NCBI GenBank assembly: GCA_002711995.1
Contig: PASN01000019.1
Location: 248,001 to 312,000 of the forward strand
Reading direction: 5' to 3'
DNA length: 64,000 nt
From: Halobacteriovoraceae bacterium
GTDB taxonomy: Bacteria > Bdellovibrionota > Bacteriovoracia > Bacteriovoracales > Bacteriovoracaceae
Shown: one piece after another, positions 32,152-40,928 of the stretch
How positions within the stretch are numbered: the first letter of the stretch is position 1
Layout of the letters: each line of letters starts with the position of its first letter
Made by a program: the position numbers and the translations under genes
Notes under the pieces: model-generated
Databases searched by the model: none
What the model saw: the letters and a program-made list of their open reading frames with translations, nothing else
What the model was told of the DNA's origin: nothing

Positions 32152-33288
32152 ATGTGTTTTATGAAACAAAAAATGTTTTTTGATATTGAGTCTCTTTGTG
32201 ACCAGGAGTTTTTTAAAAAGCACTGGAAGAAGGAGATAAAAGTCTGGAAAGGAGCGCTCAAAGAGCAGCTGTTTGACTATGAAAAACTGAATGATATCTT
32301 AAATACATTTGAATTTTCCACCGAAGATCTGCGACTTGTGCGTGGGGATCAGTTCTATAATATGCAGAAGTTGGTGGAGAAAAACGCCCATGACAGCAAA
32401 CATCGCCTAAATCGTTACTCTAAAATTGACTCGTTAAAACTCAATGAAGTTTTACGTCGAGACACCTATTCTGTGCGTTTTTTCTCTCTTTCTAAATATG
32501 ACGTCGAGTTCAAGAGATTTGCGCGACATGTGGAGCAATTAACACACAGAAGATGTGACTCCATAGGTATTTATACACCTGAAGGTCAGAGTGCTTTTAG
32601 CTGGCACGCTGACGACTTTAATGGGTTTGCAGTGCAGACAGAAGGTAAAAAGACATGGAGAATCGCGCCTCCTGGAAAAGACGGAAGCGATGGAGACTAT
32701 CGTGAAGTCACGCTTGAGAAAGGGGATATTCTTTATTTTCCCGAAGGATTGTTTCACCAAGTTTTTACTGAAGATACCCCTTCCTTACACGTGACGTTCG
32801 CTTTAAGAGAACTTGAATTAAAAGAGTTAATGAATGTATTTTTGCACCAATTGGACAACCCTCTTTTCAAAAAAAGATTCGCATATGAAGAGAATGGTTT
32901 TGGGGTGAATGAAGCTGCCACCAAGAAACTTCTTAGGGAGGGAGTGTTCGGTCTCAATAAAGTATTCAACGATCCTCATTTTGTTTATGCGGCCGAGGGT
33001 TTGCTTTTAGGCGGGATCGAGAAGCAGAAGCCTTTCATTAATCTTCCTTATGGAGGGCAAGATACAAGCTTTCGCCTCGCCAACACTGAAGAGGCCTTGG
33101 TTTTAAAAAGAGGAGAGGGGGGAGCTAGTATTTTATTTAGAGGCCGAAAATATCCCATTGGTGTCTCAAAGGAAGAGTTTGAGCAATTAATAACAAAAGG
33201 CGTTTTTAATGAAAAAAAGCTCAGTGCACTTTTCCCCCAAGTAGATATTGTGGAACTTTTAACTATAGGACTTGTAGAAGAAATATGA
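32152..33288 (+). CDS. JmjC/cupin-type Fe(II)-2-oxoglutarate oxygenase of the RiPP locus
   Basis: The 378-aa protein has a JmjC-like core. His152 and Asp154 in S-W-H-A-D-D-F and His202 in E-G-L-F-H-Q-V-F supply the H-x-D...H iron triad, and K-K-T-W-R-I (about 163-168) fits the 2-oxoglutarate-binding strand. The layout (cupin core plus helical C-terminal part) resembles ribosomal-protein hydroxylases of the ROXA type. Its stop overlaps the PqqD-like gene, and a precursor peptide lies 0.4 kb downstream, so hydroxylation of the peptide is a reasonable guess. The start is ATG 32152 or 32161; the ribosome site is weak. Confidence 0.82.
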   Translation: MCFMKQKMFFDIESLCDQEFFKKHWKKEIKVWKGALKEQLFDYEKLNDILNTFEFSTEDLRLVRGDQFYNMQKLVEKNAHDSKHRLNRYSKIDSLKLNEVLRRDTYSVRFFSLSKYDVEFKRFARHVEQLTHRRCDSIGIYTPEGQSAFSWHADDFNGFAVQTEGKKTWRIAPPGKDGSDGDYREVTLEKGDILYFPEGLFHQVFTEDTPSLHVTFALRELELKELMNVFLHQLDNPLFKKRFAYEENGFGVNEAATKKLLREGVFGLNKVFNDPHFVYAAEGLLLGGIEKQKPFINLPYGGQDTSFRLANTEEALVLKRGEGGASILFRGRKYPIGVSKEEFEQLITKGVFNEKKLSALFPQVDIVELLTIGLVEEI

Positions 33289-33536
33289 ACTATCAAATTA
33301 ACCCCGAATTTATTTATGCTGAAGAGGACAATGGTGAACTAGCTATTGTTGGGCTTTCAGACGAAAATAATGAGGTTATTAGACTCCAGGGAAAGCTTGG
33401 GGAAATTTTTATCCTCATAGTTGAAGAAGGCCTTTCACTTGAAGAAATAGTGGCACGGGATGATCAGATCGAATTAGCTGACTTAGAAAAGTTTGCCAAA
33501 AAGCTTTCTGAATTAGGGGTGCTAAGCCCGACTTAA
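33285..33536 (+). CDS. PqqD-like RiPP recognition element (first copy)
   Basis: An 83-aa stand-alone protein starting inside the JmjC gene stop (ATGA). The order of short strands followed by helices (A-I-V-G-L-S-D-E-N-N-E-V-I-R-L, G-K-L-G-E-I-F-I-L-I, G-L-S-L-E-E-I, D-L-E-K-F-A-K-K-L) is the PqqD winged-helix pattern. Such proteins bind leader peptides and hand them to modifying enzymes. It lies 136 bases upstream of the precursor gene. The intervening 33537-33672 carries no other gene and may hold a separate promoter for the precursor. Confidence 0.75.
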   Translation: MNYQINPEFIYAEEDNGELAIVGLSDENNEVIRLQGKLGEIFILIVEEGLSLEEIVARDDQIELADLEKFAKKLSELGVLSPT

Positions 33537-33672
33537 TTGTGACTTGCCCACCTAAGTAGGCAAAAGTTCTTCGGCTGGGGAAGCTAAGTAGCCTAAATTA
33601 CAAATACCTTTAAATACAATAGCGTTCATGTTACGATTGTCTTAATAATTTCTAACCCCAGTTGGATGCATC

Positions 33673-33885
33673 ATGGCAAAAAGTAAGAAAACAGAAAGCG
33701 CAGGCAAGACTTTTGAATTTGGAAGTCTAGGTAGAATTCTGATTGAAAACTTAGAGGAAGTTGAATCAAGCAACTTCGAATACTTAAATCCAAAAACTGT
33801 GGAAGATTTGACCGATCTTAATGCTTACGCTATTCAATCTGGATGTTCTGCCTGTTCTGCTAGTGGATTGGCATTTTGCTGTTAA
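33673..33885 (+). CDS. Lanthipeptide-type precursor peptide
   Basis: A 70-aa peptide with a charged, hydrophobic-patterned leader (residues 1 to about 53, with F-E-F-G-S-L-G-R-I-L-I-E-N-L and F-E-Y-L-N-P). The C-terminal tail is rich in Ser and Cys: Ser at 56, 59, 62 and 64, Cys at 58, 61, 69 and 70, with no Thr. Equal numbers of Ser and Cys would allow up to four lanthionine rings, the last ending in a Cys-Cys terminus. The gene lies 4 bases before LanC and is followed directly by LanB. There is no double-Gly cleavage site. Exact leader boundary is inferred. Confidence 0.85.
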   Translation: MAKSKKTESAGKTFEFGSLGRILIENLEEVESSNFEYLNPKTVEDLTDLNAYAIQSGCSACSASGLAFCC

Positions 33886-33889
33886 GTAA

Positions 33890-34981
33890 GTGATTTCAAA
33901 AAAAATAGATGCGTTTGAAAAATCCTTTTCCTCGCGCTCAATAAAGAGAGCTGGCCTAGTCGATGGCTTTGCTGGAGTCTCTCTTCTTTATCTTGAAGCT
34001 TACCATAAAACCAAAAATGAGGGGTATTACTCCAAAGCACTTGGTTATTTAAAGCTCTCATTGGCGAAAGAGTCTGCCTCCAAAGTTCGCACTCCCTTTC
34101 TTTTTGGTGGGTCACTAGGAATTACATGGGTCCTGAAGCGAGCTTTAGAAGTTCACAATTCCCCAGCATTAGAGTCACAATTCAATAAGAGGTTCTCCTT
34201 ACATAGCGGTTTGGCACAATACCTCGACCAGGAGGGAAGGTATGAATTGATGTCTGGAGCTGTTGGAGTAGGAGTGTTGGCAAAGTCTTTAGGCGATGAA
34301 GAACTTTTGGGCGAGGTGTTGAACTATCTTGAAAGATTTTTAGTTAAAGATGAACTGTACGATGGGCACTCTTTTTATAGATCACTTGAAGATACATCTG
34401 AAATCTGGAATCCTGATGCTCAGACAACTAATAGAATTAACACCGGCCTATCACATGGAATCTCTGGCGTTTTGCTTTTCCTAAACGGGTTGGAAGATCC
34501 CCGCGCCATAAGTATCCAGGACGCTCTGGCACAAACGCTTATTTATATAAACCAAAACAAAGAAACGAAGTCGCTTCCATCATATTTTCCGGCCAGTGAA
34601 GGGCCTAAACAGAACTCTTGGTGTTACGGTGACATGGGCGTAGGTTTGGCCTTGGCCGCATACGGTGTTAAGAGGGAAAACTCTCTAGCTCTTGAAACTG
34701 GAAAGGAAATCTTTTTAAGAGGCCGAACACTCTTTCAGAAGCAAAAACAAAAATCGCTTTGCCTTTGTCACGGCGTTTCAGTAGTGAAGCTTATGCTTAT
34801 TAACTTTAATAGGCTCACAAACTCTGATCTCACACTGAGTGCTGAAGAAGAGGCCTTGCTTAATACAGAGTTTAATGATTTCGCCTTCATTAACGGAGAT
34901 GCAGGACGACTTCTCGCCCAGTGCAGTTCTCTTGACTCGGTTACTGGTTGGGAAGGCCTGCTTTTGTTGAGGGGGTTTTAA
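33890..34981 (+). CDS. lanC: LanC-like lanthionine synthetase
   Basis: The 363-aa protein starts at GTG 33890, four bases after the precursor stop. LanC landmarks are G-L-V-D-G-F-A-G-V-S-L-L-Y, G-L-S-H-G-I-S-G-V, and the zinc ligands Cys245 in W-C-Y-G, Cys293 and His294 in L-C-H-G. All three ligands are present, so the enzyme should be able to activate Cys thiols and add them to dehydroalanine. It is immediately followed by LanB with no gap, and together with the precursor forms the catalytic core of a class I lanthipeptide system. Confidence 0.92.
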   Translation: MISKKIDAFEKSFSSRSIKRAGLVDGFAGVSLLYLEAYHKTKNEGYYSKALGYLKLSLAKESASKVRTPFLFGGSLGITWVLKRALEVHNSPALESQFNKRFSLHSGLAQYLDQEGRYELMSGAVGVGVLAKSLGDEELLGEVLNYLERFLVKDELYDGHSFYRSLEDTSEIWNPDAQTTNRINTGLSHGISGVLLFLNGLEDPRAISIQDALAQTLIYINQNKETKSLPSYFPASEGPKQNSWCYGDMGVGLALAAYGVKRENSLALETGKEIFLRGRTLFQKQKQKSLCLCHGVSVVKLMLINFNRLTNSDLTLSAEEEALLNTEFNDFAFINGDAGRLLAQCSSLDSVTGWEGLLLLRGF

Positions 34982-37606
34982 GTGAGAGGCAGGCCTAAGA
35001 TTTGTTTTTTTAAAAGCCCAGCTCTTGATGTTGATCTAGCAAGAAAACTTCTTTCACTCTCGCAAATTGAGCTAAAGGAAGAGCTTGATTACTTATTTGA
35101 ATTGCCACATGTTAACTTTGCAATTCGGGCCTCTTCCCCTTCATTTTATGAGAGTTTCAAAAACAAAGCTTTTGACACAGCAGACCTTTATTTTACACTT
35201 ATGAATTACATTGTCCGAATGTGTCTTAGACCGACTGCATTTGGCATAATGGCGAGCACGGCAGTAGGAGAGCTATCCTCTTCAACAGATCTTACAGAAG
35301 GACAGGTTAAAGTTTTAAAAACCTTGCCTGAAAATGGCGAGGATATGTTGGCGCTCAATCCAACAATCTTTAAATCCGCAGGAAAGCTCTATTTCTATCG
35401 TTGGGTAGACGAGGGGCCAATAAGACGTTTTAAGTATCAAAGCCTAGAGCTCGATAAAAAACTAGAAAAACATTTAAATTTCCTTAAAAAGCCGCTTCCA
35501 GCAGAAAAAGTATATAAACTATTTGGTTCCAAGCAAGAGAGTAAACTAGTGGCGTCTTTAAAAGATGCTGGCGTCTTAGTTGATGCTTTTGGAAAAACGG
35601 CCATTGGAAACTATCATATGAATGAAGTCGGGCAGGGGACTTCTGTAAAGAGTTCTTTGGAAATCTACAATCATGTGTCTTATGATTCCTCACCTAAAAC
35701 ACTTTCAATAAAATTTGAACACAAAGCACGAAAAGCACTTTCAGTTTTAAACAGCATTTATCATGCTCGCAATCGCAAGGCCTCTTATCATCAGTTGTTA
35801 GATGAATTTAAAAAAGACTTCCTTGCCTTTTACGAGGATCATCAGGTGCCTCTTTTGGAATGCATCGATTCTTTTAGGGGAGTTGGTTTCTCTAAAGGAG
35901 AAACAGTTCGCTACGTTGAATTTCCAGAGAAAACAGTGCAATACATGGCCGAAAAAATTTACTCAAAACAAGTACAAGAGACTGGATCATGGGAGCTTAC
36001 AAACGAGGATGCAACGAAACTTTCCTCTATGGGGAAGTCCGATCAAGGTTATACAACTTTGAGTAGAAAATTTTCTGTAAGTGCCAAGTTAGGTCTTTTA
36101 GATCATGAGGATGGTGCCGTTCTTAAAGCTTCTGTTTGTGGGAGTTACTATGCTCCTCACTACAGGTGGAGTATCCTTTCAAATGAGTTGGCCTCGTGCT
36201 TAACTGATCAATTGCCAAAAAGCGACAGTAATTTTGTCTATGCAGATATCGAGTTTTATCCAGGAGAGCGAAGTGCCTCCTATATTAGACGAGGCCCATT
36301 GGCAGAATATTACATTCCTATTACTGGTTTTACCAAGGATGCCAATGCTATTTTAATGTCCGATATATTGGTTAGTGTGAATCAAGGATTTATCAGTTTA
36401 TGGAGTAAGAAATTAAAAAGGTATGTGATTCCTCTTCCGATGCATAATTACAACTTCATGTATGATCCTCTTCCCGCAGTGCGGTTTTTAAATTCAGTTG
36501 CCCGTCAAGACTGCCCGGATTTTCTAAAATGGGTTTGGCCGCAAGAATTAGAGGCCAGATTCCTTCCCAGGGTAAGCATAGATGGGATAATCCTCAGCCC
36601 GAAGACTTGGAGGTTTTCTAAAACAGAGTTTTTAACAAACTATGAAAAAACAGAGTTTCGTTCACTTTATAGGCTTGATAAATTCGTGAACTTAAGAGAT
36701 GGGGACTCTTTCGTAACTCTAGACTTAGATGATCATAAAAGAGTTGAAAAGGAAGTCAAAAGAGCAAAGTCTGCAATATTAAACTTTGAAGAGTGCTGGC
36801 AACTTTCGACAAAAACAGAAAAAGTTTTTGAGGTTGGAGTTCCCATTGAACTAGAACACGAAAACGATGTCAATGTAGTTAGCTTTGAATCCTTAAATGC
36901 TGGACGACGAGAATTCAACGAATACTCAGAGAACTTTTCCAATTTCACCGCTTTTGAAGTGCTGTGTTCGGGACTTGACGCATACGAAGTACTAGAAGAG
37001 GTCGGGAATGCTATTGGGCAGAACTTCTTTTATATTTTCTATCCCTCCCGCTTTAAAAATAAGACTGAAATTAGATTTAGATTCGTTAATGGTAATTTTA
37101 TAGACTATGCAGCTCTCAACAAAAGCTTGACGGATATGCGCTCCAATGGACTTATTTTTGATTTTTCATTTAAGTCTTATGAGACGGACTTTGTTTTTTT
37201 CGGGGACGACATAGAGGCCCTTAAATTGCTCTACATCCATGCCAGTGACTACTTTAGACAAAGAATAGCAAGCGGGAAAACGGAAGAGCAACTTTTCTTG
37301 GATTACGCAGTCTATACATTAAATCTTGCTGATACACTTGGGCTAAGGCCCATTGACTTTAATAAAATTGAACCATCTATAAGAAATAAAACAACAAAAG
37401 CGATGGTTAAGTCCTTCTTTGTAAGCAGCGTGGCAGATAAAAAATCTCGGCCCAAAGTGGATTTTCCTGAGTTAAGTATCAATGCAAAAGAAAAGGTCTT
37501 TTTCAGAATGCTTCACATGAATGGACTAAGATGCTCACCACTGAATGCAGTAAGCTTTGAATCCGCAATGGCACAGTGTCTACGTGTTATGGGGAAAAAT
37601 GTTTGA
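34982..37606 (+). CDS. lanB: LanB-type lantibiotic dehydratase, single chain
   Basis: An 874-aa protein starting at GTG directly after the LanC stop. The N-terminal region has F-A-I-R-A-S-S-P-S-F-Y and Y-I-V-R-M-C-L-R-P-T-A-F-G-I, typical of the tRNA-Glu-dependent glutamylation domain. From about residue 650 there is a SpaB_C-like elimination domain with F-F-Y-I-F-Y ... E-I-R-F-R-F and a C-terminal M-L-H-M-N-G-L-R, corresponding to R-Y, H-L-R-L-R and H-M-x-x-N-R in relatives. The R of R-Y is missing. At 874 aa it is shorter than NisB-type proteins (about 1000). It should dehydrate Ser in the precursor. The 3' end overlaps the convergent glycosyltransferase. Confidence 0.88.
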   Translation: MRGRPKICFFKSPALDVDLARKLLSLSQIELKEELDYLFELPHVNFAIRASSPSFYESFKNKAFDTADLYFTLMNYIVRMCLRPTAFGIMASTAVGELSSSTDLTEGQVKVLKTLPENGEDMLALNPTIFKSAGKLYFYRWVDEGPIRRFKYQSLELDKKLEKHLNFLKKPLPAEKVYKLFGSKQESKLVASLKDAGVLVDAFGKTAIGNYHMNEVGQGTSVKSSLEIYNHVSYDSSPKTLSIKFEHKARKALSVLNSIYHARNRKASYHQLLDEFKKDFLAFYEDHQVPLLECIDSFRGVGFSKGETVRYVEFPEKTVQYMAEKIYSKQVQETGSWELTNEDATKLSSMGKSDQGYTTLSRKFSVSAKLGLLDHEDGAVLKASVCGSYYAPHYRWSILSNELASCLTDQLPKSDSNFVYADIEFYPGERSASYIRRGPLAEYYIPITGFTKDANAILMSDILVSVNQGFISLWSKKLKRYVIPLPMHNYNFMYDPLPAVRFLNSVARQDCPDFLKWVWPQELEARFLPRVSIDGIILSPKTWRFSKTEFLTNYEKTEFRSLYRLDKFVNLRDGDSFVTLDLDDHKRVEKEVKRAKSAILNFEECWQLSTKTEKVFEVGVPIELEHENDVNVVSFESLNAGRREFNEYSENFSNFTAFEVLCSGLDAYEVLEEVGNAIGQNFFYIFYPSRFKNKTEIRFRFVNGNFIDYAALNKSLTDMRSNGLIFDFSFKSYETDFVFFGDDIEALKLLYIHASDYFRQRIASGKTEEQLFLDYAVYTLNLADTLGLRPIDFNKIEPSIRNKTTKAMVKSFFVSSVADKKSRPKVDFPELSINAKEKVFFRMLHMNGLRCSPLNAVSFESAMAQCLRVMGKNV

Positions 37607-38633
37607 GAATGTTTTGTGCTATATGGTTTTGTGGGTCGTAAATACTAGCTCTAAATAAATCCCGGACCTTTTCCATGTCTTGGGATTCAAATTTTGAAGT
37701 ATAATTTAAGATCTGCTCGATGTTTAAAGCTTTTGGTTTGAGGTGCTCACAAAGCTTTGGAAAAGTAGAAGGAGGCTCGTTTAAGGCCTTCTCTATAAAG
37801 TCCACCGTTCTAGTTATGCGCGACTGCATATTCTCTTTAGTTATGTGATGGCCAAACACACTTGGTGGTACCTTTAAAATGTTTTCCCCTGCCAGATCTT
37901 TATGTGCTCCCCAATCACTTACAATTAGTGGAAATCCTACTTCTTGGGCCTGTGCCGCACTGACGCCGAAATCCTCGAACAAGTTAGTGCTGAAATTGAT
38001 CATCACAGAATCTTTGGGGAGGGTCTCTTGCCAATTGAGTCCTAGGTCTCCTTTAATTTCTGGAGTAAACTTCCATTTCAATTTTTTTATGGCATTCCGG
38101 GCGAGATACTCCTCAGGTTTAGGAGAGCAAATAGTTAGTTTGACTTCACCTTGAGAGCGTTTTTGAATCTCGTTAACCACGCCAATGGTGAGTTCTATGT
38201 TTTTACTTAACGCATAGCTACTGCTCATAACAAAGTGGAAGTTTTCCTTTGTTGAAGGAAGCGGATATGGAGACTGCGGCATGGGAAAAATTTCGTAGCG
38301 AGGGATGACACCGATGCTAGACAACGATATGCCCACGAGGTCATTTATAATCCTTTTCATGTCGTGACACAGGACCCATAGGCGATATTTAGGTTTTCTA
38401 GGCCAATTTTTTGCCCATACAATGGTTTGTAAAGCGTCACCAAATAGAACGACGTCAATGATTTCCTGGCCTGGCCAGATTAAGTCGCAGGCGTGGTTTG
38501 GAAAAGCGGAAGTGTAGGTTCCATGAATTCGATGAAAATAGTCAGAGACCTTGTCTTGCAGGATCATCAGGCTAGGGTAGGCCAACTCCTTTTCCAGCAG
38601 GTATTGGTAATATTTTTGTTTTGAGGGCAGCAT
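37587..38633 (-). CDS. GT4-like glycosyltransferase in the RiPP locus
   Basis: A 348-aa soluble protein. The C-terminal half has F-E-D-F-G-V-S-A-A-Q-A-Q-E-V-G-F-P-L-I-V-S-D-W, typical of the E-x-F-G ... E-A-x-A-x-G-x-P-V nucleotide-sugar site of GT-B (GT4) enzymes. It is the only gene in the locus on the minus strand. Its start region overlaps the upstream region of the second PqqD-like gene, and its end overlaps lanB by 20 bases. It could glycosylate the peptide, but glycan or lipid acceptors cannot be excluded. Confidence 0.75.
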   Translation of the reverse strand: MLPSKQKYYQYLLEKELAYPSLMILQDKVSDYFHRIHGTYTSAFPNHACDLIWPGQEIIDVVLFGDALQTIVWAKNWPRKPKYRLWVLCHDMKRIINDLVGISLSSIGVIPRYEIFPMPQSPYPLPSTKENFHFVMSSSYALSKNIELTIGVVNEIQKRSQGEVKLTICSPKPEEYLARNAIKKLKWKFTPEIKGDLGLNWQETLPKDSVMINFSTNLFEDFGVSAAQAQEVGFPLIVSDWGAHKDLAGENILKVPPSVFGHHITKENMQSRITRTVDFIEKALNEPPSTFPKLCEHLKPKALNIEQILNYTSKFESQDMEKVRDLFRASIYDPQNHIAQNILKHFSP

Positions 38634-38650
38634 CTACAAATGATATAAAT

Positions 38651-38929
38651 ATGTATATGAAAAATCCAATAATATTTAGGCCCCCAGAGTCTGTCAGCCG
38701 GGTTAACACCAATGGCAGTGTCTCGGTCGTTCTCTTCGGCCAGGATGCCCCCCGCCACTATGTTTTGGAAGGTGAGGATAGCACTTTATATTCACTTGTG
38801 AATGGTGAGCGTGCAACTAGTCAGATCATGGAAGAGTTCTTTTTGATCCATCATGAGAATTCACAGGTAATATTTTTTAGAAGACTAAAAAAACTCCTCA
38901 ACTCGGGGGTCGTGGTTGTCGACGTCTAA
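38651..38929 (+). CDS. PqqD-like RiPP recognition element (second copy)
   Basis: The frame is open from TTG 38621, but ATG 38651 or 38657 is more likely, giving about 92 aa. The segment Y-V-L-E-G-E-D-S-T-L-Y-S-L-V-N-G followed by helices (I-M-E-E-F-F, R-R-L-K-K-L-L-N-S-G-V-V) fits the PqqD-like winged helix. The gene overlaps the next by 14 bases. Two separate PqqD-like proteins in one locus suggest two different modification steps, each with its own recognition element. Confidence 0.65.
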   Translation: MYMKNPIIFRPPESVSRVNTNGSVSVVLFGQDAPRHYVLEGEDSTLYSLVNGERATSQIMEEFFLIHHENSQVIFFRRLKKLLNSGVVVVDV

Positions 38930-39410
38930 AAAGGATAAATGGCTTTTTCGTTTTTTTATTTTTAATTCTTTGCTGTTTCTAACAGCACCTCTAGCGCTTC
39001 ACTTGCCAGGTGACTGGGGTGCCTTCTCCAAAGCAAGGCTGTACTACAGGGCCATAACAGGTGTGGGCTATCGCTACAATATGTTTGCTCCAGAAATTTC
39101 TCCCACGAAGTATCATGTTCAATTTATTGTTTTTAATGAGGAAGGGTCAAAGACCATCGATTTTAAAAGAATTGTTCCCCAAATGCACAGGGCCAACTTC
39201 GAGTATGAACTTGGAATCGGTGGTGGAACATTTCGCGGTATTTCTGAGCACCTACCAATGCTTGAGAAGCTCATTGAGACAAAGTACCTATCTAAGGGGG
39301 TCGATAGATTGCGAGTTCAGGTAGTCGAGTATGAATTTGAATCTTTATACTCTAACAAAAAACCATTAAGAGTGGAAAGAGTGTTGTGGAGCAAAGATTA
39401 CGATGGATAA
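38916..39410 (+). CDS. SdpA/DUF5819-like membrane-anchored protein
   Basis: The only available start is TTG 38916, with GGGGG upstream, inside the end of the PqqD-like gene. The 164-aa protein has one N-terminal membrane segment (F-F-I-F-N-S-L-L-F-L-T) and then a soluble domain with G-Y-R-Y-N-M-F-A-P-E, close to the W-x-M/F-F-A-P motif of DUF5819/SdpA-like proteins. These normally pair with HTTM membrane proteins, as seen here with the next gene (8-base overlap). In Bacillus, SdpA and SdpB together mature the SdpC toxin. The homology is inferred from pattern and context. Confidence 0.62.
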   Translation: MSTSKKDKWLFRFFIFNSLLFLTAPLALHLPGDWGAFSKARLYYRAITGVGYRYNMFAPEISPTKYHVQFIVFNEEGSKTIDFKRIVPQMHRANFEYELGIGGGTFRGISEHLPMLEKLIETKYLSKGVDRLRVQVVEYEFESLYSNKKPLRVERVLWSKDYDG

Positions 39411-40176
39411 GTTTCTAAAGGCTCTTTACGTTCCTAAAAATCTTTTTGAATCTAGCTTCCTTCTTGGACTGCTAATCTGTTTTTTCTTCAATTTTTTAGT
39501 GACACTTGCTTCTACGATTACAGGGGTCGAGATAGGAATTCCAATTCAACTGGATGTTTTTTTGATTCTTGGTTTTGATTTGGCAACCCTTGCGTCCTAC
39601 AGATTTAGCAAAAAGATGTTTCTGTTTATGGCGTTTGTTAGCACTTCGTGCAAAATGACCTTCGACCTATTTTACGGAGATGCTGGGCACATTTTCTTTC
39701 AGAAATTTCTGTTTTTAGGTTTGCTGATCTCCTTCATGAGCTCAGAAGAAAAGAAGCGAACTCTTCGCGTGGGTGCGGTTTTGTTATTGCTGCTTTCCTA
39801 TTTCTTTACCGGTTTTCAGAAACTCTTTTCAGACGACTTCGTGACAGGCAATGCTGTCCTTAAAGTCTTTGGCTCTCCTGTGTGGAGTTTTGTTGGTCAC
39901 AATACAGTGGTCAAAGTCGCCGAAGCGGCACCCGCCATTCTTACTCTCGCCGGAGTAGCTGTGCTTCTTATAGAGCTCATCCTTCCTTGGCTCTTTATAA
40001 TGCTACCTAGGACGAGGAAGCTTTCTCTGTTTACGTTTTTGATATTTCACGCCGTCACTTTTATATTTTTAGAGCTTACGACTTTCCCTATATTTATGAT
40101 CATTCTAGACCTTTGCGTTTTAGGTCCCGTAGTCTACTATAACGGTGAAAGAAATTTAAAAAAGGAACTGATGTGA
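39403..40176 (+). CDS. HTTM (SdpB-like) multi-pass membrane protein
   Basis: A 257-aa integral membrane protein with about six hydrophobic helices. S-Y-F-F-T-G-F-Q-K-L-F-S-D-D-F and the paired H-N-T-V ... F-H-A-V-T-F-I-F-L-E-L-T-T-F-P-I-F-M are typical of HTTM proteins, the superfamily of vitamin-K-dependent carboxylase and SdpB. It overlaps the SdpA-like gene and the following DUF3050 gene, so three proteins are translationally coupled. A role in processing or export of the modified peptide is the working hypothesis. Confidence 0.78.
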   Translation: MDKFLKALYVPKNLFESSFLLGLLICFFFNFLVTLASTITGVEIGIPIQLDVFLILGFDLATLASYRFSKKMFLFMAFVSTSCKMTFDLFYGDAGHIFFQKFLFLGLLISFMSSEEKKRTLRVGAVLLLLLSYFFTGFQKLFSDDFVTGNAVLKVFGSPVWSFVGHNTVVKVAEAAPAILTLAGVAVLLIELILPWLFIMLPRTRKLSLFTFLIFHAVTFIFLELTTFPIFMIILDLCVLGPVVYYNGERNLKKELM

Positions 40177-40928
40177 TTATAGAATTCGAAAATGAGGTTA
40201 TGCAAAAAATGATTCCATTGGAAAGGCACAAGCTTTTCTCCAAAATTCAATCAGGTGGAGACCTCAGAAGCTTTATGGAAAGGCATGTTTATGCGGTGTT
40301 TGACTTCATGAGCTTGGCCAAAGCATTGCAAAATGAATTCGCACCCTGTTCTGGTGTTTGGACTATGCCAAAGTCTAATAAGATGGCCCGGTTTATAAAT
40401 GAAATTATTCTATGCGAAGAATCAGATGAATTGCCATCTGGTGAATATATGAGCCATTTTGAAATGTATTGTATGGCAATGGATGAGGTTCATGCTGACA
40501 AGACTAGCGCCATGAGTTTTATGAAAGCTGTTAACGCTTCTGGCGTGAGTACAGCGTTAAGAGAAGCTACAATGCCCAACTCATCTAGAAATTTTTTGAA
40601 ATCAACATTTGAAGTTTTAGAAAGAGGGAAAATTCATGAAATCGCAGCTTTCTTTTGTTTTGGCCGTGAAAAGTGCATCCCCCTGATGTTCCAATCTCTT
40701 CTAGATGATATGAAAATATCAGAATCCGACGCTCCCATATTTTATCACTACCTCAAAAGGCATATTGAAGTGGATGGTGACTCCCATGGACCGCTAGCTC
40801 TTGAAATGATGGAGTTCATTTGTGGGACAGATGATCAGATGTGGGAAGAGTCCAAATCTGCAGCGATTAGCGCGATTGATTGTAGAATTGCATTTTGGGA
40901 CGAAGTCGCAGAAGAAATTAAAAAGTAA
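40173..40928 (+). CDS. DUF3050 heme-oxygenase-fold protein
   Basis: The start is GTG 40173 (GTGA overlap with the HTTM stop; AAAGGA upstream). The 251-aa protein shows the DUF3050 pattern: F-M-E-R-H-V-Y-A-V-F-D-F-M-S-L, E-E-S-D-E ... Y-M-S-H-F-E-M-Y, and Y-L-K-R-H-I-E-V-D-G-D-S-H-G-P. The spaced Glu/His residues are those of heme-oxygenase-like di-iron oxidases. It could oxidise the peptide or an amino-acid side chain; no activity is established for the family. It is the last gene of the RiPP operon and a palindromic hairpin follows. Confidence 0.8.
   Translation: MIIEFENEVMQKMIPLERHKLFSKIQSGGDLRSFMERHVYAVFDFMSLAKALQNEFAPCSGVWTMPKSNKMARFINEIILCEESDELPSGEYMSHFEMYCMAMDEVHADKTSAMSFMKAVNASGVSTALREATMPNSSRNFLKSTFEVLERGKIHEIAAFFCFGREKCIPLMFQSLLDDMKISESDAPIFYHYLKRHIEVDGDSHGPLALEMMEFICGTDDQMWEESKSAAISAIDCRIAFWDEVAEEIKK

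Follow-up and report, generated by a model that had tools for sequence, protein, structure and literature searches.

A 70-aa open reading frame (ORF) in a 64,000-nt stretch of DNA from a Halobacteriovoraceae bacterium (the window) most probably encodes the LanA precursor of a class I lanthipeptide that would be modified by the adjacent LanB and LanC enzymes, a reading to which we assign a probability of about 0.86. On sequence comparison the ORF is a real and conserved gene and of a known class, because it lies directly before the ring-building enzymes and homologues occur in two further genera. The features of the locus, in window coordinates, are as follows:

32152–33288, + strand: JmjC_2 (PF08007) 2-oxoglutarate/Fe(II) oxygenase, candidate precursor hydroxylase (Pfam E 8e-17; aligned with NO66 over the HxD...H region)
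33285–33536, + strand: 83-aa stand-alone RiPP recognition element (RRE) with a predicted PqqD-like fold (AlphaFold2 and Foldseek)
33537–33672, + strand: intergenic region before lanA, likely promoter (Rfam and fold tests)
33673–33885, + strand: lanA, predicted 70-aa precursor (translation; homologues with a Cys-Cys end in G317/L041 and G057/L034)
33890–34981, + strand: lanC, 363-aa lanthionine cyclase (PF05147, LANC_like, E 7e-35; motifs; related to NisC and LanCL chains in the PDB)
34982–37606, + strand: lanB, 874-aa full-length class I dehydratase with glutamylation and elimination domains (PF04738, Lant_dehydr_N, E 3e-50)
37587–38633, − strand: GT4-type glycosyltransferase, tail-to-tail with lanB (20-bp overlap; Pfam)

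The precursor gene

Translation of positions 33673–33885 on the forward strand gives the 70-aa product MAKSKKTESAGKTFEFGSLGRILIENLEEVESSNFEYLNPKTVEDLTDLNAYAIQSGCSACSASGLAFCC, in which a leader of approximately residues 1–53 is followed by a Cys/Ser core of approximately residues 54–70 (IQSGCSACSASGLAFCC). The residues listed in the initial annotation (Ser 56, 59, 62 and 64; Cys 58, 61, 69 and 70) were confirmed by translation, as was the absence of Thr from the final 17 residues, and all four Cys of the product fall within the final 13. Of the 225 window ORFs of 40–120 aa, lanA alone combines at least four Cys and at least four Ser or Thr in the final 17 residues with an absence of Cys before them; the confinement of all four Cys to the final 13 residues together with a terminal pair has a probability of ~6e-5 given the composition. 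Small ORFs are evidently frequent in the window, and a chance reading frame might be suspected on that count, but length-matched homologues stand in a like gene context in two genera and only 4 bp separate lanA from lanC (lanB then follows with 0 bp), which makes this explanation practically negligible.

A riboswitch or structured leader upstream of lanA was considered and rejected, since the intergenic region (33537–33672) matched no Rfam family and its predicted fold was no better than those of shuffled sequences (z = 0.15). An inverted repeat (GGCTGGGG / CCCCAGTT) spans window positions 33569–33665, just 5' of lanA.

Related precursors and distribution

A search for related precursors near lanBC in relatives, as proposed in the initial annotation, found them in two other Bacteriovoracaceae genera. 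In a Bacteriovoracaceae MAG (G317, locus L041; CANETG010000310.1), a 71-aa ORF with a DCC end lies 3 bp upstream of a lanC whose product is 30% identical to the window LanC, and a lanB frame then follows (tblastn E 7e-11), so that the gene order is lanA-lanC-lanB, as in the window. In a member of another genus of the same family (G057), a 77-aa ORF ending in SGCSDSCGSSTNCC lies near lanB and lanC. Against the window lanA, the L041 precursor was equalled in score by none of 3,000 shuffles and the G057 precursor by 2 of 3,000; for L041, the comparison was significant for the leader alone (p = 0.004) as well as for the core alone (p = 0.008). The terminal Cys-Cys is invariant in the alignment of the three precursors, and lanB and lanC adjoin the precursor in all three genomes that carry it.

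When 129 genomes of the order were searched with a profile built from the three precursors, whose own E-values are hence not independent, no further member was convincing. LanB was found in 5 of the 291 genomes sampled from the phylum (~2%) and had no match among viral contigs, the LanC scan of genome contigs gave a match in L041 only, and P0001 was without a match among plasmids. PF14028 gave no match in the genome of the window, a result of no weight because the control of that search was equally without a match. Class I lanthipeptide clusters are thus rare in the lineage of the window. No report of a lanthipeptide from Bacteriovoracaceae was found in a literature search; the family is known to include predatory bacteria, and in a lineage with such members these lanthipeptides could serve as weapons or signals.

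Two further ORFs were noted beside lan genes of relatives. In G151, a 95-aa ORF ending in CADCSAHCDGSSGCPGTAC (L035:1192–1479, − strand) adjoins lanB and lanC; it was rejected as a lanA homologue because its similarity was not significant by shuffles, and it is probably an unrelated lanthipeptide precursor. In G057, a 369-aa ORF directly 5' of the full lanB (L034:5152–6261) resembles a LanB fragment by eye and has no Pfam match.

Modifying enzymes and the elimination site

LanC is a separate protein in which the motifs GLSHG (186), WCYG (244) and CHG (293) are present, with Cys-Cys-His zinc ligands supplied through the latter two. The LanB profile, built with relatives, aligns along residues 30–980 of NisB (4wd9; E 5e-60). 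In a divergent multiple alignment (15–21% identity) anchored on a Tyr that is invariant and lies three positions ahead of the elimination-site Glu, the NisB glutamylation residues Y80, R83, R87 and T89 are kept in LanB as Y76, R79, R83 and T85, the residues W616, R784, R786 and H961 as W543, R698, R700 and H845, and R966 is kept as well, while the elimination site is altered (NisB E823 to D736, R826 to F739 and Y827 to F740) and the His of the HLRLR motif is Glu. The Arg equivalent to NisB R826 is missing from the LanBs of G057, G151 and G173 as well (I, V and I, respectively), in which the Glu is retained.

In NisB, residues Y80, R83, R87, W616 and H961 matter for function, and the H961A and Y80F substitutions abolish dehydration (PMC4341554); the R786A, R826A and H961A mutants accumulate glutamylated NisA with no elimination (PMC4979651). 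The window LanB might accordingly glutamylate Ser and eliminate poorly or not at all, which would leave few lanthionines, glutamyl esters or Cys disulfides in the product. Such an outcome is suggested by the four substitutions read against those mutants and by the absence of the Arg from two other Bacteriovoracaceae LanBs (G057 and G151), and the C-x-x-C spacing plus the C-C end would fit disulfides. We nevertheless consider it unlikely, as H845, R698, R700 and the entire elimination domain are retained, the Glu persists in the relatives that lack the Arg, and both LanC and Cys-rich precursors are still present in G057 and G151, the retention of LanC implying that dehydroalanine is made. Because the Arg is absent from the G057 and G151 enzymes too, its loss may be a lineage trait, and to judge from these alignments elimination in these LanBs may be done differently or be weaker. 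The enzyme offers a natural case for testing which residues elimination really requires.

Leader recognition, cleavage and ring formation

Leader recognition, dehydration, ring formation, hydroxylation, the cleavage site, export and activity are aspects of the pathway that we infer. As a class I system, LanB would bind the leader, probably via an N-L-[ED]-E-[VI] box, glutamylate the core Ser from Glu-tRNA and then eliminate glutamate to yield dehydroalanine, to which LanC would add Cys thiols to form lanthionines, with the Cys-Cys end closing two C-terminal rings; the leader would be cut near the conserved A/V-Y/F-A (residues 51–53) by an enzyme encoded elsewhere.

The leader had been described as having neither a standard FNLD box nor a double-Gly site. 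The latter is indeed absent, and the former statement is literally correct, yet E-N-L-E-E-V (residues 25–30; core N-L-E-E-V, 26–30) aligns with I-N-L-D-E-I of L041, the closest homologue, and is a candidate degenerate FxLD-type box; a change from FxLD to LxLD is one variation on record (PMC12710340). In all three precursors the core is preceded by a conserved tripeptide (AYA at residues 51–53 of the window product, VFA in L041, AYA in G057), which could mark the leader cleavage region. The Pfam scan of neighbouring genes identified no LanT, LanP, ABC transporter, leader protease or immunity gene; the lack of LanT, LanP and an immunity gene in this set weighs against the class I reading, as do the altered elimination site of LanB and the absence of a JmjC-RRE pair from the relatives' clusters. 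That the leader protease gene lies far from the cluster is conceivable, though speculative.

The equal numbers of Ser and Cys had been taken to allow four rings with no thiol left over. This count does not fix the number of rings, as the 4:4 ratio is not kept in relatives and LanB is without an Arg on which glutamate elimination by NisB depends: five Cys and more Ser are present in L041, the Ser-only make-up gives way to one with Thr in G057, and complete dehydration cannot be assumed because the window enzyme has Phe in place of NisB Arg826 and Asp in place of E823. Across the aligned precursors, the conserved trait is the Cys-Cys end rather than the Ser/Cys count.

The topology put forward in the initial annotation, two very small rings followed by two larger ones, is the sole arrangement when every one of the four Ser reacts and pairs with a Cys C-terminal to it: C58 is then limited to S56 and C61 to S59, and S62 and S64 are left for C69 and C70 in nested or crossed rings. 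Four standard-direction rings would therefore force two S-x-C rings, and rings of this type are very small and unusual. Instead, the product could be a class I lanthipeptide with reverse rings (Cys N-terminal to dehydroalanine) or with fewer than four rings, free of the two S-x-C rings. NMR has demonstrated a reverse ring (Cys8 to residue 14) in one member of the DUF6229 family, a class II lanthipeptide (PMC9576775), so that the proposed topology does not hold irrespective of ring direction, and the numbers of both Ser and Cys vary among the relatives; on the other hand, S-G-C-S is common to the window and G057 precursors, as expected if the small unit matters. We regard reverse or fewer rings as a realistic possibility, somewhat on the improbable side; it is compatible with the class I explanation and is a rival only to the earlier ring count.

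Upstream and downstream neighbours

The JmjC_2 and RRE genes overlap by 4 bp, both upstream of lanA. The 83-aa protein had been called PqqD-like, and its AlphaFold2 model (pLDDT 88) bears this out: the predicted fold has strands followed by three helices, as in a leader-binding type of RRE, and the top Foldseek matches were known RRE structures, namely TbiB1 (with leader peptide), LynD/TruD-type heterocyclases and the PbtF RRE. A second protein described in the same way (38621–38929) gave a poor model (pLDDT 44). The RRE fold together with the gene overlap suggests hydroxylation as an extra step, in which the separate RRE protein would bring the JmjC oxygenase to the leader and the oxygenase may hydroxylate the peptide; this role is a proposal because no JmjC-RRE pair turned up in the relatives' lan clusters. 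Tailoring by such a pair would be uncommon among lanthipeptides. That Bacteriovoracaceae have a branch of class I systems combining elimination at an altered site (without NisB R826) with JmjC hydroxylation guided by a free-standing RRE is a tentative and rather doubtful proposition.

The genome has a second, paralogous JmjC gene (G000 contig C8, ~229000–232000; L077/L078), likewise followed, with a 4-bp overlap, by an 85-aa ORF. Ahead of it stand a glycosyltransferase-like gene and a 63-aa peptide that contains LNLDDV and DLYAYA, and the locus may be a RiPP cluster of a non-lanthipeptide type. The peptide (L077) was rejected as a shared-leader precursor because its similarity was not significant (shuffle p 0.05–0.08; BLASTP E 0.8).

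Downstream, homologues of the glycosyltransferase lie directly 3' of lanB in G057 and G231, with 30% identity to L034:8793–9773 (E 2e-38) and a tblastn match at L037:5200–5763. It was rejected as a cluster marker, the family being present in 39 of the 129 genomes of the order, and its role in the pathway is uncertain. Window positions 38621–40928 hold, in a row, genes for a small protein, an SdpA-like protein, an SdpB/HTTM-like protein (NCBIfam TIGR04033, E 1e-5, below the cut-off) and a DUF3050 protein. SdpA/SdpB-like genes also occur near the G057 lan cluster with weak similarity, and such pairs were rejected as a conserved feature because the similarity was too weak. At 465–1823, 32 kb from the cluster, the window has a gene whose product carries IIDSGVD, a motif of S8 subtilases, and which is a speculative candidate for a remote leader protease.

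Comparison with known systems

The locus shares with nisin-type class I systems a full-length LanB with glutamylation and elimination domains, a separate zinc LanC, an adjacent Cys/Ser-rich precursor and, possibly, an FxLD-like leader box. It differs from them in the degenerate form of this putative box (ENLEEV), the Ser-only core with its Cys-Cys end, a LanB without the equivalents of NisB R826 and E823, and the setting, with an RRE and a JmjC oxygenase adjacent and no LanT or LanP identified nearby. Class I clusters of Bacteroidota (the pinensin group and others; PMC7268733) are likewise Gram-negative and have non-FNLD leaders (LxLxKx5L in Bacteroidota), whereas in the window no double-Gly leader or C39 transporter was seen and LanB is only ~20% identical.

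Members of the DUF6229 family are class II lanthipeptide precursors (PMC9576775, PMC11451712), and the lanA product could belong to this rhodanocin-type family and have been captured by class I enzymes. Residues 43–70 weakly match the C-terminal half of PF19740 (E 0.005), a similarity that includes the final residues. However, the score of 17.2 bits stays below the Pfam cut-off of 25, the two homologous precursors have no PF19740 match, the known members go with class II (LanM) enzymes (PMC9576775), and PF19740 was without a match in the 291 phylum genomes, in a search whose control was also without a match; we judge this origin very unlikely. For the class I cluster described here, the JmjC oxygenases of RiPP clusters offer a further parallel, in which PF08007/JmjC stands beside the precursor and the RRE is encoded adjacent: BipG is a JmjC ornithine hydroxylase in another RiPP pathway (PMC12707348), and PF08007 domains fused to RREs are known, with bacterial homologues in RiPP-like contexts (PMC12710340). 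In contrast to these, the RRE of the window is a separate protein and the setting is a LanB/LanC cluster.
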